Positions 43,247 through 50,513 are shown, numbered from the stretch's first letter. The stretch is DNA of 64,000 nucleotides from Ensifer sp. LC11 (GCF_001695835.1 NZ_MBSO01000001.1:124001-188000), one strand, 5' to 3'. Notes: generated by a model from the letters alone, not told the origin. Translations and numbers: made by a program.

Positions 43247-43323
43247 TGGCGCACCCGACAGGATTCGAACCTGTGACCTTTGGAATCGGAATCCAACACT
43301 CTATCCAGCTGAGCTACGGGTGC
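43247..43323 (-). tRNA. tRNA-Arg (anticodon CCG)
   Basis: Reading the minus strand from 43323: acceptor stem GCACCCG pairs with CGGGTGC, then a D arm (GCTCAGCTGGATAGAGT), anticodon stem TTGGA/TCCAA with loop TTCCGAT giving anticodon CCG, and a T arm with GGTTCGAATCC. The discriminator is G and CCA is encoded at 43247-43249. It reads CGG codons, which are frequent in this genome. In S. meliloti a single tRNA-Arg(CCG) is reported as essential and located on pSymB. Its 3' end faces the accessory stretch. Confidence 0.95.
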
Positions 43324-43648: not shown

Positions 43649-45181
43649 TTGGCCATTCGAGACCTCACGACCGGTGAACCGGCATTGGAGAGGCTGCGCT
43701 CCGATCCCGCGTTGATGCTTCTTCTCGTCCTGTCTGCAGCGCTCTTTGTGCTGAACACCTGGAACGGCATCGGCATATTGCCCGATTCGACGCGCTACAT
43801 GCAGATTGTCAGCACGCCCTATGACGCGCCGCTCTATGCGTGGCTGTTGGGTGCCGGGGGATCCCTCGGACTTGAGCTTGAGCACGTCGCGCTGGGCGCT
43901 GCGTTTCTGCTCTATCTTCTCAATACCTTTCTCGTTTTTTCCCTGTTCAAGACGGCGCTGCCGGATCAGCCGTTCTTCTCAACGGTCGGAACGCTGCTGA
44001 TCATCGTCAACCCGACATTTCTCTGGACGAGCACCATTGCGATGTCAGAGGCGCTCTTCCTCGCGCTGTCATTTCTCGCCATCGGCTTTTTCATTCGCTA
44101 CCTGCGGGGGCAGGGGCGGGGATCCTTGCTTGCGTCGTCGGCCTGCATTGGGCTTGCCATGCTCGCCCGCTTTGTGGCGCCGCCGATCGGTGCCGCCTTC
44201 GCGACCATCGCGCTCTTTTACAATTCGGCCCGTTCCGTCCGTCAGAGGCTCGTCGACGTTGTCCTGCTCTTCATTGGCAGTGCCGGTATCTTTCTTGCCT
44301 GGGTCATCGTCAGCAAGCTCCTTGTCGGCCGGGCCGTTGGGCGTGAGCTCTGGTTCTACGGCAACGCCGACGCGGAGCGCTGGCTGGCCGGCCTTTCGCT
44401 GCTGGCGAGCTTCCTATTGCCCAGCCAGGTACCGCAGGTCATCCGCATTCCGGTGCTGCTTCTGACGCTTGCCGTCGCAACTGTGGTCCTGGTGCAGACC
44501 CTGACGCGGAACTGGCCCGAGCGCCGGCCCGACGATCGTGATCTGCTTGTGCTTATCTTCGGCCTGTTCGGCTTTTTCTACTTGCTGTTCGTCGTGCTCG
44601 CCGTGCACGTCGAGGCGAACCTGCAGCTCAATTCGCGTTACTCGCTTCCCTTCTACGTCAGCATCGTCTTCGTTGTGGTGATCGCAGCGGCCGACTACTG
44701 CGGCCGGCGGGTTGCTTTGCCGATCGCCCGGCGCTCGGTCGCCCTCATCCTGCTTTGCCTTCTCGCCATCCACGGTCTGCGCAGTGCTGCGCAGACTGCT
44801 GAAGCCTTCCGGGAAGGCGTCGGCTTTCAAAGCACGGCGTGGAAGTCGTCACCGATCGTCGGCGCCGTGCGCGCGCTGCCGGCAGACGCGGTCATCTTCA
44901 CCAATGCCTGCGACCCGCTCAACTTTCTGACGCGCCGGTCGACGGACTGGATCCCCTCTTACAGCGAGAGGCGCACTGGCCTCGAAAGTGACGCAGGTCC
45001 CCTTAACGCGCAGCTCGAGCGATTTCGCAAGGACCTGGCAAACAGGAATGCCTATGTCGTTTTCGTCGATGCGATCGACTGGCGATTTTACCTGGTGACG
45101 GAAAAGGAGCTCGTCCAGCTCGCCAAGCTGAAGCTGGTGCGCTCCGAAAGCGACGGCCGCATCTACCAGGCGGAAAAATAA
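43649..45181 (+). CDS. Polytopic membrane glycosyltransferase-like protein (GT-C type)
   Basis: 510 residues with about ten hydrophobic segments in the first 400 residues and a soluble C-terminal domain of about 110 residues. The first periplasmic loop has an acidic residue in [14 protein letters not shown], as in GT-C enzymes that use polyprenyl-phosphate sugars (for example GT39 or ArnT). The start is a TTG at 43649 with GAGGGGG upstream; the first in-frame ATG is 22 codons later inside the first membrane segment. It heads a rightward trio with a UbiA and a HAD gene and would transfer the lipid-linked sugar made by them. Confidence 0.7.
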
Positions 45182-45237
45182 GCGCGCGCTTGGAGCGCGA
45201 AGACAGGAGCGGGTGATCTGCAGCCGAGGAGAGGGAC

Positions 45238-46245
45238 ATGCCTGCGAACCAGGAAAATACGACCGGTGTCGAGACGCTAGGCGGCCAGCCGCAAGGACAG
45301 ATGGCCGATTACCTGTCGCTTGCCCGATTCGACCACGTCACCAAACATGTTTTCATCCTGCCGGGGCTGATCCTCGCCTGCGCGCTCAGCACGCCGGACC
45401 TCACCGCCCTGGTCGTCAATATTCCCGTGGGCCTGCTCAGCGCGGTGTGCATCGCGTCGGCCAATTATGTCATCAACGAATGGCTGGACCGGGAGCGGGA
45501 CGCGGCCCATCCGACCAAGTCGAAGCGCCGCGCGGTCGTCGTTGAGATGCAGCCGCGTATCGTCTACGGCGAGTATCTGCTTCTTGCGGTCGCAGGGTTG
45601 CTGCTTGCCTCGGTCATCGGCAAGCTGTTCTTCGTCACGTCGGTACTCTTCCTGCTTTCCGGTATCTTCTACAACGTCGAGCCGATCCGGGCGAAGGACA
45701 AGCCCTATCTCGACGTGCTGACGGAGTGCCTCAACAATCCGATCCGCTTTCTACTCGGCTGGGCGATCGTCGACCAGGCAACCCTGCCGCCGGTCAGCGT
45801 GCTTGCCGCCTACTGGATGGCCGGCGCCTTCCTGATGGCTGCCAAGCGTCTTGGCGAATACCGCGACATTGCCGCCCATGCGGGGGTTGCCGTTCTGAAG
45901 AAGTACCGGCGTTCGTTCGAATACTACACGGAGGAGAGCCTTACCGTTTCCTGCTTCGTCTACGCGATGATGACGGCGTTCCTGCTGGGCGTCTTTCTTG
46001 TCAAATACCGTGTCGAATACATTCTCGTCTTTCCTTTCATCAGCGGCCTCTTTGCCGTGTATCTCTGGCTGGCCACCCGCCCGGGCTCGGTGGTGCAGCG
46101 GCCGGAAAGGCTGTTTCATTCGCGCCGGTTGGACGTCATGTTGACCCTGACCGTCGTCGTTTTCCTGTTTGCGAGTTTCGTTGACGTACCGGTGCTGGAC
46201 TTCATGGCCGCCTCGTTCCTCGTTCCGATAACGTCGCTGCAATGA
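45238..46245 (+). CDS. UbiA-family prenyltransferase, DPPR synthase-like
   Basis: 335 residues, about nine membrane segments. The first Asp-rich motif reads NYVINEWLDRERDAAHPTKS (N-x3-D-x3-D), and the second region is NVEPIRAKDKPYLDVLTECL. The spacing KSKRRAVV and the second motif resemble decaprenyl-phosphate phosphoribosyltransferases (Rv3806c, NoeC) rather than UbiA acting on hydroxybenzoate. Such an enzyme joins 5-phosphoribosyl diphosphate to polyprenyl phosphate. GAGGAGAGGGAC precedes the ATG. It overlaps the HAD gene start by four bases. Confidence 0.82.
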   Translation: MPANQENTTGVETLGGQPQGQMADYLSLARFDHVTKHVFILPGLILACALSTPDLTALVVNIPVGLLSAVCIASANYVINEWLDRERDAAHPTKSKRRAVVVEMQPRIVYGEYLLLAVAGLLLASVIGKLFFVTSVLFLLSGIFYNVEPIRAKDKPYLDVLTECLNNPIRFLLGWAIVDQATLPPVSVLAAYWMAGAFLMAAKRLGEYRDIAAHAGVAVLKKYRRSFEYYTEESLTVSCFVYAMMTAFLLGVFLVKYRVEYILVFPFISGLFAVYLWLATRPGSVVQRPERLFHSRRLDVMLTLTVVVFLFASFVDVPVLDFMAASFLVPITSLQ

Positions 46246-47003
46246 TCCGTTCAGCCCTGCCGAACGGCCCGGTCGATTGGGATCAGTTGCGCCTCGTCGT
46301 CTTCGATCTTGACGGCACGCTCTACGATCAGCGGCGGTTGCGCACCATGATGCTGCTGCGGCTTCTTCTTGATGCGGTGCGTGCGCGCAGCCTCGACACC
46401 ATTCGCATTCTGCGGGCGTTTCGTGACTGCCGGGAAGAGCTTGGCAATGCGATGGCGGCGGACATTGCAACGCGGCAGTTCGAGCTTGCTGCCGAGCGGT
46501 GCGGGCGTTCCGCCGAGACAGTCAAGACGACGGTCGAGGAATGGATCGAGCGCCGGCCCCTCGATATCCTAAAGGCCTGCCGGTGTCGCAGCATCGAGCG
46601 GGTGTTTGCCGGTCTGGCCGCACAGGGCAAAACGCTCGCCGTTCTCTCCGACTATCCCGCTCTGGCGAAACTGAAGGCGCTCGGTCTTGATGCGGATATC
46701 GTCGTCTGCGCGACGGACCCCGAGGTCGGCGCTTTGAAGCCTCATCCGGCCGGCCTTGCCCATGTACTCAGTCGCGCACAGGTGTCGACCGGAGCGGCGA
46801 TCATGATTGGCGACAGGGTGGATCGGGACTGGGCCGTCGCCAACAGCCTGGGCATGCGTGCCCTGATCCGCAGCTCCAGGCCGATTGCGGGTGTCGACAC
46901 GTTCCGCGGCTATGATGACGAAATCTTCGGCCCCGTCATCGAGCGGCTCGGGCCGGTCGGTACGACGGCATCGTCCTCACGCTCCATCACGACATCATCT
47001 TGA
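46242..47003 (+). CDS. HAD-family phosphatase
   Basis: 253 residues. Motif I LVVFDLDGTLYDQ gives the catalytic Asp pair, motif II is TLAVLSDYPALAKLKALG, motif III is the Lys in VGALKPHPAGL, and motif IV is AIMIGDRVDRDWAVANSLGM. Coupled by ATGA overlap to the UbiA gene, it is a good candidate to remove the 5-phosphate from polyprenyl-phosphoryl-5-phosphoribose. Its last 17 bases overlap the end of the convergent epimerase gene. Confidence 0.85.
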   Translation: MIRSALPNGPVDWDQLRLVVFDLDGTLYDQRRLRTMMLLRLLLDAVRARSLDTIRILRAFRDCREELGNAMAADIATRQFELAAERCGRSAETVKTTVEEWIERRPLDILKACRCRSIERVFAGLAAQGKTLAVLSDYPALAKLKALGLDADIVVCATDPEVGALKPHPAGLAHVLSRAQVSTGAAIMIGDRVDRDWAVANSLGMRALIRSSRPIAGVDTFRGYDDEIFGPVIERLGPVGTTASSSRSITTSS

Positions 47004-48015
47004 GCAACCAGAGGGCACCCTGCTTGATTGGGGTGCGGTGAGGGCTCTTCGCCGCCACGGCGGCTGCCACTTTGGAGCTCTGCCGATACCAGTCGTAGCT
47101 CTCCTGCAGCATGGTTTCGTTTGAGTATTTTGGGCGCCATCCCATGGCGAGCAGCGGCTCGACGTCGAAGTAACATTCCTTGTGATAGGTCAGGTAGTGC
47201 CAGGGGACCAGGGGCGAGATCCTCAGCCAATGGAGCGCCCGCAGCGTGTTGATGGTGGCCGAGGTCGGAAGGCTTCTGACTTTCGATGTGCTGCCCGCGT
47301 AGCGGATCAGGGCTTCCAGATCGTGGCGCAGCGTGCCGAAGCGATCGGTCCCGACGTTGTAGGTGCCGCTCCGGCCGGCATTCAGCGCCAGCATATAAAA
47401 ATCCATGAGATCGTGGGCATGGACGAACTGGAACTTGATGTTGCCCGATCCGATGACATAGACGGCGCGGTTCTCGGTGATCCACTCGAAGAGGATCTGG
47501 AAGATGCCGAGGCGGCCGCCGCCGAGCGTGGCGCGTGGCCGGATGGTAATCAGGGTCATCCCGGCAGCGTTGCAGATTGCCTCTGCGACCTCTTCGCCGG
47601 CGCGCTTCGACTTGCCGTAAGGTTCGACCGGGCGAAGCGGGGTTGCCGCAGTGATTGGCCCGGAAGGGGGGATGCCATAGGCTGCGGTCGAGCTGACATG
47701 GATCAGTGACCTGACGCCCGCCTTGGCGGCCTCCTCGCAGACGATGCGGGTGCCTTCGACATTGACGTTCCAGTAGTCGCGACCGGCATCCGTCTGTGCC
47801 ACGAGGGCGGCATTGTGGTGCACGATGTCCACGTCGGGCATGGCCGCCCGCACGCCGTCGCGATCGAGTACCGAGCAATTGACGAATTCGATGTCCGCCG
47901 GCCGGGTGTGGTCCTCCCAGACGTCGAGGACCCGCACCTGGTCGCCCTGTTCGCGCAGCCGTCTGGCTGCAAGGTTGCCGATGAAGCCCGATCCGCCGGT
48001 GATGAGATGCCGCAT
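46987..48015 (-). CDS. NAD-dependent epimerase/dehydratase (extended SDR)
   Basis: About 342 residues. The Rossmann motif HLITGGSGFIGNLAARRLRE is at the start, HHNAALVAQTDAGRDYW in the middle, SSTAAYGIPPSG carries the Ser/Thr, and EPYGKSKRAGEEV has the catalytic Tyr-x3-Lys. GGAGGGAC precedes the ATG at 48015; the longer frame to 48156 overlaps the GMC gene and is rejected. With the GMC oxidoreductase upstream it could complete a two-step oxidation/reduction epimerisation of a lipid-linked sugar. Confidence 0.88.
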   Translation of the reverse strand: MRHLITGGSGFIGNLAARRLREQGDQVRVLDVWEDHTRPADIEFVNCSVLDRDGVRAAMPDVDIVHHNAALVAQTDAGRDYWNVNVEGTRIVCEEAAKAGVRSLIHVSSTAAYGIPPSGPITAATPLRPVEPYGKSKRAGEEVAEAICNAAGMTLITIRPRATLGGGRLGIFQILFEWITENRAVYVIGSGNIKFQFVHAHDLMDFYMLALNAGRSGTYNVGTDRFGTLRHDLEALIRYAGSTSKVRSLPTSATINTLRALHWLRISPLVPWHYLTYHKECYFDVEPLLAMGWRPKYSNETMLQESYDWYRQSSKVAAAVAAKSPHRTPIKQGALWLLKMMS

Positions 48016-48046
48016 GTGTCCCTCCAGCCCCTTGGGGATTGTCCGA

Positions 48047-49519
48047 TCAGATCGCCCGATCCGCGAGCGCGCGGGTGACGTTGCGATGCGCGACAGCCAT
48101 GACTGTGCCCTGCGGGTTGACGACCGTCGGGCCACACAGAAGCGAAGCGTCGGCAAGGTAGAGATTGCTGGTGCCGTGCACGCGCCCGAACGAATTCGCC
48201 GCGCACTTCTCCATGTCTTCTCCCATCGGGCAGGACGAGAAGAGATGAAGCGCTGTGGCGTTCGCCTGTTTGGGCGGAAGCGTCTCGGGAAGCTTGCCGA
48301 TATCGGCCAGCGATTTCAGCACCGGGTAGCCGGGAATGCTGGGATAGACCGCAAGGGCGCCGGCAGCAAAGAGAACCTCGGCGAGGCGCGCGAGGCCGTC
48401 GGCCAGCTCCTTCAGGTCCGCCGGTTGAAGGCCGACGCGCACCAGCGGATCGCGAAAGCCGGGCAGGGATCTGACCTTGCCGGATCCACCGGTGCTTTGC
48501 ACATAGTAGATCGCCATGCGGCGCCAATCCTGGTCGACCGTGTCGATCATCTCGGGGTGGGCTGCCATAGCGAGCGCCAGCGCCGGCCGCTTGCTCATCG
48601 AACAGCCCATGCTGAAACGCGGGTCGAATTCCTTGATCTGATGGACGGGTTCGAGTTCGCCGGGTGTGTTGAGCTCGTCGGGAAAAACGGCCACCACTTT
48701 CAACATCGGATGGAAACGCAGGCTGTCGCCAACATGGCGGGTGATGCCCGAGCGCCGCAGCAGCCACGGGGTCTGAACCGCACCGCCGGCGACGAAGACC
48801 GTCTTGGCCTTCAGTTCGATCTGGCGCGGGCCTGTCGCACCGTTGCTGCGGGCCTGGACCAGCCATTGACCGTTCGATCGGGTGAGCTTGGTGACGCAGG
48901 TGTCGGGCATGAGCATGCCGCCTGCCTTCAGAAAACGCGGCACGAAAGTTTCCGACATGGATTGCTTTCGACCCGGTGCTCCCCCAACGGCACCGGGTGC
49001 GTAAGCATAAAGGCGCGGTACTTCGAGGGATGACCAGCCGAGCCGCCTTGCGCCCTCGTCGAGCCGTGTCGACAGCTGCGGCGCCGGCCCAGGCAGGTAT
49101 TCGACCCGTGCCACTGCCTCGCAGGCGTCAAAATGCGGGATGAGCTCCTCAAGCGTCAACGCATCGACCCGATAGTCCCGGCTCCATCGTTCAAGCACCG
49201 ACTGCGGCGTGCGGTGATAGAGGCCCCGGTTGATCTCGCTTCCGCCGCCGACACAGCGCCCTTCGACATAGGCGATCTTCGTGGCGCCGAAGCCGATGTT
49301 CACCCCGGCGTTGCGGTACTTCTGCAATATTTCTTCGCGTGAGAAGTGGGGGGCTGACTCAAGCGCCAGATGCGGGCCTTCCTCGAGCATCAGCACCGAT
49401 TTTCCCGCCTCGGCGCAGCGGGTGGCGGTCACCGCCCCCCCCGGGCCGGATCCAATCACGATGACGTCGGGGACAAGCCTCTCAGGGGCTGGCCGGCGCT
49501 CCGGTTGCAACAGGTTCAT
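48047..49519 (-). CDS. GMC-family FAD-dependent oxidoreductase
   Basis: About 490 residues. The FAD motif DVIVIGSGPGGAVTATRCAE is near residue 17, EGRCVGGGSEINRGLYHRTP is the GMC signature, and the C-terminal block has HLFSSCPMGEDMEKCAANSF and ADASLLCGPTVVNPQGTVMA with the conserved active-site His/Asn region. The start at 49519 lies inside the end of the small-subunit gene (38-base overlap). It would oxidise an alcohol, here possibly the 2-hydroxyl of a lipid-linked pentose. Confidence 0.87.
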   Translation of the reverse strand: MNLLQPERRPAPERLVPDVIVIGSGPGGAVTATRCAEAGKSVLMLEEGPHLALESAPHFSREEILQKYRNAGVNIGFGATKIAYVEGRCVGGGSEINRGLYHRTPQSVLERWSRDYRVDALTLEELIPHFDACEAVARVEYLPGPAPQLSTRLDEGARRLGWSSLEVPRLYAYAPGAVGGAPGRKQSMSETFVPRFLKAGGMLMPDTCVTKLTRSNGQWLVQARSNGATGPRQIELKAKTVFVAGGAVQTPWLLRRSGITRHVGDSLRFHPMLKVVAVFPDELNTPGELEPVHQIKEFDPRFSMGCSMSKRPALALAMAAHPEMIDTVDQDWRRMAIYYVQSTGGSGKVRSLPGFRDPLVRVGLQPADLKELADGLARLAEVLFAAGALAVYPSIPGYPVLKSLADIGKLPETLPPKQANATALHLFSSCPMGEDMEKCAANSFGRVHGTSNLYLADASLLCGPTVVNPQGTVMAVAHRNVTRALADRAI

Positions 49520-49880
49520 GCTGATAGTCCTGGCCGTAAAGGTCTGAGTAAATACCGAATAATGCCAATGAAACATGGAACTCGACGAAGCGCCGCTTGA
49601 ACTCCAGGCGGGACCGCCGCCACTTGTCGAGTTCGCTCAGTCGGTCTTCGAGCGGAAGATGATGAAAAAATCTGCCTCTGCTGAGCAGGGGCCAGGCATT
49701 GAATAGAAGCACAAGGATATGAAAGGGCGGACGCAGATAGTCTGGCATCTGCCGGTGGACGCGCAGGAGAAATTCCGCGGCGCGCACACCCAGAGCACCC
49801 CGCCGGTCATCGATAGAGCCGCGTTCATGGGCAATCGTCTCGGCGAGCGCCAGGATGGCCTTCTGAAAATGCTGCGACAT
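49482..49880 (-). CDS. Small subunit of GMC-type dehydrogenase (gluconate 2-DH subunit 3-like)
   Basis: About 132 residues, helical, starting MSQHFQKAILALAETIAHER. The pattern ALAETI at the N terminus and the FNAWPLLSRGRFFHHLPLED middle resemble the small partner proteins encoded beside GMC dehydrogenases. No Tat or Sec signal is seen. An alternative ATG at 49898 adds six residues. It overlaps the GMC gene, so the two are translated together and probably form a complex. Confidence 0.7.
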   Translation of the reverse strand: MSQHFQKAILALAETIAHERGSIDDRRGALGVRAAEFLLRVHRQMPDYLRPPFHILVLLFNAWPLLSRGRFFHHLPLEDRLSELDKWRRSRLEFKRRFVEFHVSLALFGIYSDLYGQDYQHEPVATGAPASP

Positions 49881-50069
49881 GACCGAGCCCGTTATCAAAC
49901 TGGCCCCATTTGGAGCCTGACGCTGTGCTGATGAATACGGCTGCCTGCTCTTTACTGCTTGTATTTCTATCTGTTCTTATAAGCAAAAGCTACATAAAGA
50001 TTGCTTTCGGCCAGCCGCCGACCATGGATGTGCGGGCCGCAGGACGTCGCCAAATGCGAAGGGCACCTG

Positions 50070-50513
50070 ATGAGACGCCTTCGGGACATGAGCTTTTTCC
50101 GTTACTTCGCCTTTGGCTGCATCGCGGCGAGCCTGCAGGTGGCGACACTCGCTTTGCTTGTGGAGGTGGGGCGGCTCGGTCCCGTCTATGCGTCCACCAT
50201 CGCCTTCTACTTCGCCGTCATTGTCAACTATTTCCTGCAACGGCGCTACACGTTCCGCTCCGACGAGCCACATCTTCGGGCCCTGCCAAAATTCGTGGCG
50301 GTGTCGACCATTGGCGCCGGAATAAACGCGCTCGCCTTCAGCCTACTTGCGACCGTCATGCACTATGCCATCGCCCAGGCCCTGGCGCTGCTGCTCGTCT
50401 TCTCGGTCAACTACGCTATCAGCCGTGCGCTGATCTTTCGCAGGAGAGAGCCCGGAGAGGCGTCGGCGACGCGGCCGGCGACCACAGCGGAACCCGCCCA
50501 AACAGGCAAATGA
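50070..50513 (+). CDS. GtrA-family membrane protein
   Basis: About 147 residues with four membrane segments: [20 protein letters not shown], then the [16 protein letters not shown]-type C-terminal block and [20 protein letters not shown], both typical of GtrA proteins that flip or stabilise polyprenyl-phosphate sugars. GAAGGG precedes the ATG at 50070. It is divergent from the GMC pair, next to the putative lipid-linked pentose genes; Rv3789 of Mycobacterium, beside dprE1/E2, is of the same family. Confidence 0.85.

Follow-up and report, generated by a model that had tools for sequence, protein, structure and literature searches.

A cassette of seven genes in Ensifer sp. LC11 probably makes and uses a polyprenyl-phosphate-linked pentofuranose, with a flavoenzyme of the GMC family acting as a non-orthologous replacement for DprE1 in a known pathway type. 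The cassette occupies positions 43649-50513 of a stretch of 64,000 nt (GCF_001695835.1 NZ_MBSO01000001.1:124001-188000), referred to here as the window. A preliminary description, made from the sequence alone, had proposed such a pathway for these genes; a check of the open reading frames in the window located all seven where it had placed them, and the same set recurs in other genomes beyond chance. Searches of the open-access literature turned up no earlier description of a GMC enzyme linked to UbiA or to polyprenyl sugars; the GMC version of the pathway type is supported by comparative genomics. The genes are, in order along the window:

43649..45181, plus strand: GT-C-like polytopic glycosyltransferase, candidate pentosyltransferase (Pfam PMT_2; nine hydrophobic segments)
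45238..46245, plus strand: predicted UbiA-superfamily polyprenyl-phosphate phosphoribosyltransferase of the DPPRS/PPPRS type (Pfam, NCBIfam, residues, profile)
46242..47003, plus strand: HAD phosphatase, candidate 5-phosphoribose phosphatase, PRP (Pfam Hydrolase/HAD_2; DxDGT motif)
46987..48015, minus strand: extended short-chain dehydrogenase/reductase (SDR), candidate NAD(P)H reductase of a keto-pentosyl lipid (Pfam Epimerase; TGGxGFIG and YxxxK motifs)
48047..49519, minus strand: GMC flavoenzyme, candidate oxidase or dehydrogenase of a lipid-linked pentose (Pfam GMC_oxred_N and _C; GSGPGG motif)
49482..49880, minus strand: small helical protein, candidate partner subunit of the GMC enzyme (its gene is always upstream of the GMC gene)
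About 50070..50513, plus strand: GtrA-family membrane protein, candidate flippase (Pfam GtrA_DPMS_TM)

The strand pattern, with three genes on the plus strand, three on the minus strand and one on the plus strand, indicates more than a single operon. In transcription order, the plus-strand trio encodes the GT-C, UbiA and HAD proteins and the minus-strand trio the small protein, the GMC enzyme and the SDR, while the plus-strand GtrA gene stands alone. The UbiA and HAD genes meet in an ATGA overlap, and the HAD and SDR genes overlap tail to tail. Pfam matches above the cut-off were obtained for PMT_2, UbiA, HAD, Epimerase, GMC_oxred_N/C and GtrA; the small protein matched neither a Pfam nor an NCBIfam family. 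The flavoenzyme is a GMC protein and not of the FAD_binding_4/ALO type, and no DprE1 model is among the NCBIfam matches listed for the cassette.

To which branch of the UbiA superfamily does the predicted transferase belong? The evidence supports the phosphoribosyltransferase branch, which includes Rv3806c and NoeC, and not the aromatic branch, in line with the preliminary description. The Pfam UbiA match scores 67.8 bits (cut-off 34.2), and the top NCBIfam model is that of decaprenyl-phosphate phosphoribosyltransferase (NF008977, 67.8 bits). This score is far under the equivalog cut-off of 234, which suggests a divergent subfamily and thus no strict orthologue. A profile of 51 UbiA relatives, compared with PDB sequences, placed the Rv3806c structure 8j8j first (5e-12) and the archaeal UbiA 4tq3 second (1.4e-6). 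In Rv3806c, R22, K28, Y70, N73, D77, K87, R90, Q135, Y138, and K143 contact phosphoribosyl pyrophosphate (PRPP) or Mg (PMC10994848). Ten of the 11 PRPP-site residues that were checked (R22, K28, Y70, N73, D77, D81, K87, R90, Y138, and K143) have identical equivalents here, invariant in the 51 relatives; the exception is Q135, which corresponds to G142. The PRPP-site residues are also present in NoeC of Sinorhizobium alkalisoli and in HAD-UbiA proteins, whereas the aromatic UbiA and CtaB proteins of the same genome lack equivalents of K28, Y70, and K87 as well as the KRxxE motif. These two proteins also stand apart from the cassette and DPPRS rows in a tree (support 97/96), in which very long branches call for a cautious reading. 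The structural model is confident (pLDDT 88.5) and has the UbiA fold. Grouping with aromatic prenyltransferases, the outcome that the preliminary description regarded as damaging to its proposal, was therefore seen neither in the residues, nor in the profile, nor in the tree.

In the pathway proposed here, the UbiA protein would use PRPP as the donor to load polyprenyl phosphate with 5-phosphoribose, from which the HAD enzyme would strip the 5-phosphate to leave polyprenyl-phosphoryl ribofuranose; both steps are suggested by family and active-site conservation. The GMC enzyme and its small partner would act on the cytoplasmic side, turning one hydroxyl on the ring of the lipid-bound ribose into a ketone, and the extended SDR would reduce the ketone from the opposite face, so that the pair would epimerise the sugar in the manner of DprE1/DprE2, as the substitution within the gene set suggests. 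The GtrA protein would flip the lipid, and the GT-C protein would pass the pentose to some periplasmic acceptor. A cytoplasmic reaction, as proposed for the epimerase ORF13 of Citrobacter youngae O2 (PMC11127046), is likely because no hydrophobic segments were found in the GMC enzyme, the SDR or the small protein. Oxidation at C2 would give arabinose and oxidation at C3 xylose, and the two are indistinguishable here; arabinose, xylose or another pentose may be formed, each fitting equally well. Nothing points to a given epimer, and the label "arabinose-type" used in the preliminary description is thus not established. The gene linkage of a three-component pentofuranose system is present, comprising the polyprenyl-phosphate phosphoribosyltransferase (PPPRS), PRP, flippase and GT-C genes with their predicted functions.

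The replacement of DprE1 is indicated most strongly by a second locus in the same genome (C24; L100, 6394-12353). There a fused HAD-UbiA gene shares an operon with genes for a homologue of DprE1, for an extended SDR and for a class III aminotransferase. This DprE1 homologue scores 331 bits against the NCBIfam DprE1 model, and its identity with the noe operon's oxidase, also of the DprE1 type, is 40%. Within the genome, the cassette SDR has its closest paralogue in the C24 SDR (148.8 bits, against 53.6 for the next; 33% identity, with 332 residues aligned). The same SDR subfamily thus partners DprE1 in C24 and the GMC/small pair in the cassette, in both cases with a DPPRS-type UbiA and a HAD protein, which argues that GMC/small occupies the slot of DprE1. 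At the loci examined, the SDR subfamily was found only beside GMC or DprE1 genes and never beside UbiA alone. The operon with the gene content of C24 is intact in 15 of 20 sampled DprE1 loci of Rhizobiaceae (L131-L150); its aminotransferase is unexpected for a pathway of the decaprenyl-phosphoryl-arabinose (DPA) type. By gene content, with a flavin enzyme and an SDR beside a DPPRS-type gene, the cassette would work like the DprE1/DprE2 pair. A search of 24 further genomes with GMC cassettes found no DprE1 homologue in 17, and the remainder have both, so the substitution would hold per locus and, in most carriers, per genome. Comparative support for a GMC enzyme in place of DprE1 is therefore strong.

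The distribution of the cassette is consistent with a functional unit. A scan of 84,980 species genomes yielded 80 close UbiA relatives, of which 20 have a linked homologous GMC gene; together with the window and G057 these make up 22 cassettes (at L008 the contig ends before the GMC position). The genes for the GMC enzyme and the small protein are linked with UbiA in all 22, the GT-C gene is in the same position in 21 and the extended SDR is present in 17. The HAD gene adjoins the cassette-type UbiA gene in most of the 80 relatives. As the preliminary description had proposed, the HAD phosphatase linked to UbiA is conserved as a unit with the pair of flavoenzyme and SDR, the protein of flippase type and the GT-C protein, and these 22 cassettes are the reverse of the scattered, unlinked genes that it had named as counter-evidence.

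Two main gene orders occur. The divergent arrangement of the window, with GtrA, is found in Ensifer, Mesorhizobium, Pararhizobium, and Rhizobium, and the GtrA gene is retained in the rhizobial-type cassettes L007 and L009-L012. The second arrangement is collinear (aminotransferase - GT-C - UbiA - HAD - small - GMC - SDR) and is followed by a convergent gene for a YbhN-like membrane protein and by two-component genes; its carriers include Novosphingobium, Sphingobium, Croceibacterium, other sphingomonads, Aureimonas, and one S. meliloti genome. One locus (L034) has a third arrangement, without a GT-C match. In Rhizobium sp. Root1334 (L012, 15607-19980), a window-type cassette is directly followed by a sphingomonad-like block consisting of an aminotransferase, a second GT-C and a YbhN-like gene. 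The cassette is patchy and rare: within the family, two of 101 genomes carry it, and at the level of the order a homologous GMC gene is present in three of 397. UbiA relatives that lack GMC mostly consist of UbiA and HAD genes, often with GtrA, and no epimerase of the SDR or DprE1 types searched for was found with them; if the logic of the family holds, they would be plain ribose systems. UbiA relatives with 44-48% identity are also present in Lachnospiraceae of the gut and rumen (L065-L084 and others), many of them followed by a HAD gene. GMC, SDR, and DprE1 genes were searched for at these loci and none was found, and they are possible ribofuranose-type systems in gut Firmicutes.

More distant GMC/small/SDR sets adjoin UbiA genes of other lineages, on rhizobial plasmids and in further Alphaproteobacteria; the examples are NGR234, CCGE531, S. 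garamanticum, pMLa, G177, and G869. On the rhizobial plasmids, and likewise in G177 and G268, GMC homologues with 36-39% identity belong to a run of SDR - SMR transporter - small - GMC. Close to this run lie a second SDR and a UbiA gene, which is fused to HAD on the plasmids and stands free in G177. On pMLa of M. japonicum, the UbiA gene lies a few kilobases from the GMC run, across the record start; G869 shows the order SDR - small - GMC - UbiA, flanked by two polytopic proteins. Comparison of profiles shows the small proteins of the cassette and of the distant group to be homologous (probability 94.7%, E 5.9e-8). Usually together with an SDR, the GMC/small pair has thus been joined to several distinct UbiA lineages, with a flippase-type partner that differs (GtrA, SMR, YbhN-like), and chance linkage does not explain such repeated joining. 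In S. garamanticum (L152, 1265-2735), the run is immediately preceded by genes for a phosphoribosyltransferase and a HAD hydrolase, which recall cytoplasmic PRPP-dependent ribosyltransferases. GMC matches in G611 and G579 (about 180 bits) were set aside as another GMC group, with CoA-transferase and short SDR genes as neighbours.

What becomes of the oxidised sugar? Most relatives have a class III aminotransferase that the preliminary description does not mention, and it opens a different product. The aldehyde or ketone made by the GMC enzyme might be aminated by this enzyme to give an amino-deoxy-pentofuranose donor, the SDR being a separate epimerase or an optional branch; we consider this unlikely but worth serious attention. 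The aminotransferase gene lies upstream of GT-C in sphingomonad-type cassettes and in L012, is present in all five cassettes that lack the SDR, and in an example pair its product is 37% identical to the aminotransferase of the DprE1 operon in the same genome. There is precedent for flavin-dependent oxidation followed by amination in gentamicin biosynthesis, where GenQ, a flavin dehydrogenase, prepares a sugar alcohol by oxidation for GenB1, a class III aminotransferase (PMC4039129). At L109 (7118-11168), genes for an aminotransferase, a small protein, a GMC enzyme and a formyltransferase lie in a row in an exopolysaccharide-like locus without UbiA; this set looks like a module for amination and N-formylation, as if the GMC/aminotransferase pair were portable. 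However, no aminotransferase is found in the cassettes of the window, L007, L009, L010, L011, and L034. Three genomes with GMC, SDR, and UbiA (G877, which carries L010, G869, and G177) have no aminotransferase of the family genome-wide at E 1e-50, and DprE1 was likewise not found in them. No cassette lacks both the SDR and the aminotransferase, a pattern that is statistically weak at 22 cassettes. In the window's genome, amination might still take place with an aminotransferase supplied in trans by the DprE1 operon. Reduction, and with it epimerisation, is favoured over amination for the window because its cassette has an SDR and no aminotransferase. A broader and slightly less doubtful idea, still tentative, would account for every one of these cases: GMC/small might serve as a portable module that oxidises lipid-linked pentoses, the resulting oxo-sugar being either reduced by the SDR or aminated, and in the latter case perhaps N-formylated in some species.

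Could the SDR do without the flavoenzyme? In Citrobacter youngae O2, a single extended SDR, ORF13, converts ribofuranose to xylofuranose (PMC11127046), and the SDR of the cassette matches it in fold class and motifs. The SDR might therefore epimerise lipid-linked ribose alone, while the GMC enzyme performs a separate, further oxidation of the sugar or acceptor. This is improbable: a stand-alone epimerase would need no flavoenzyme, but this SDR subfamily always has one as its companion. Far less probable still is an accidental neighbourhood in which the GMC enzyme and the SDR act on another substrate such as a sterol or hopanoid. The two proteins do score against the SdmB, HpnA and cholesterol oxidase models, but all of these matches are below the cut-off, and a sterol or hopanoid role was rejected on these grounds; moreover, the set is conserved in either of two gene orders, and it recurs with several UbiA lineages.

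Several observations weigh against epimerisation by a GMC enzyme that has replaced DprE1. The replacement proposed in the preliminary description stands at the locus but not in the window's organism, whose genome keeps DprE1 in its separate operon. Five cassettes (L013, L015, L017, L018, and L020) have no SDR, and three of these five genomes hold neither the SDR subfamily nor DprE1, so that the GMC enzyme there cannot work with such a reductase. A class III aminotransferase is present in 16 of the 22 cassettes. Finally, fold comparison of the UbiA protein ties Rv3806c with the archaeal UbiA 4tq4 (Z 20.4 and 20.6; Foldseek, VIA); the fold is thus undecisive for the subfamily, and the residues and profile scores decide.

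Further features of the individual proteins can be noted. The first loop of the GT-C protein contains the motif PDSTRYM, retained as DSxRYM among its relatives. In the GMC protein, the catalytic residues His425 and Asn468 are invariant in 21 relatives; pyranose oxidase and cellobiose dehydrogenase are among the proteins that its profile picks out as related. The small protein is modelled with five helices (pLDDT 85.8), and a fold search against the PDB gave no match. The window's protein (P0006) does not match PF13618, which is matched weakly by two of its 22 relatives (E 0.013 or worse), nor did it match a small protein of the Tat type whose gene adjoins a different GMC gene. A tRNA-Arg (CCG) gene lies beside the cassette at 43247-43323 on the minus strand, and most relatives lack the cassette. 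Lateral insertion at the tRNA gene was considered and rejected: it is the 5' side of the tRNA that faces the cassette, and there is little shift in GC content.

DprE1 is a leading drug target in tuberculosis. The literature consulted describes two kinds of epimerase for polyprenyl-linked pentoses, DprE1/E2 and ORF13, and the GMC enzyme, if its predicted role is correct, would carry out this step by a third chemistry, independent of both. Pentofuranose pathways would then become recognisable in genomes overlooked by DprE1-based searches, a soluble and testable pair of enzymes would be at hand, and rhizobia and sphingomonads would join the bacteria with predicted pentofuranosylated surface glycans. 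If the GMC/small pair is indeed a portable module, one enzyme set would diversify surface glycans with sugars not yet described.

How does the cassette compare with known systems? GMC dehydrogenases with a small subunit of the Gluconate_2-dh3 type share the position of the small-protein gene before the GMC gene, but the cassette's small protein could be placed with confidence in no recognised small-subunit family, the best PF13618 matches being weak, and it has no hydrophobic segment. The three-component systems of C. youngae O1 and O2 share a UbiA-type PPPRS, a HAD PRP, a flippase, a GT-C protein and an auxiliary epimerase (PMC11127046); the prototype flippase is a MATE protein, in contrast to GtrA here. 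For the epimerases of such pathways, Kelly et al. 2024 describe one SDR (ORF13) or DprE1/E2 homologues, and GMC is unmentioned (PMC11127046). The rhizobial noeC operon for Nod factor arabinosylation shares a UbiA protein with the same PRPP residues, GtrA, an oxidase, an SDR and a transferase in a row; the preliminary description is right about this operon in outline (PMC5080398), but the NoeC route uses a DprE1-type oxidase (40% identical to the DprE1 homologue of the window's genome) and not GMC, and its SDR is short. No nod genes are present in the window. In IRBG74, noeN, the second gene of noeCNHOP, is a proposed phosphatase (PMC5080398); the second gene of a noe-like operon on the S. alkalisoli symbiosis plasmid (L156, 6849-7271) is annotated as GtrA. 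The mycobacterial DPA pathway (Rv3806c, Rv3807c, DprE1/DprE2, Rv3789, Emb/Aft), which serves the cell wall, shares the active-site residues of a PRPP-type UbiA, the phosphatase step, a flavoenzyme with an SDR, a small membrane flippase candidate and GT-C transferases. By contrast, the cassette has GMC and a small partner where mycobacteria have DprE1 of the unrelated FAD_binding_4 family; its SDR is an extended one, and it has a HAD protein instead of a phosphatase of the Rv3807c type. The C24 operon of the same genome shares the SDR subfamily (33% identity) and the HAD and UbiA functions with the cassette, and differs from it in having DprE1 for GMC/small, a HAD domain fused to UbiA, and an aminotransferase.

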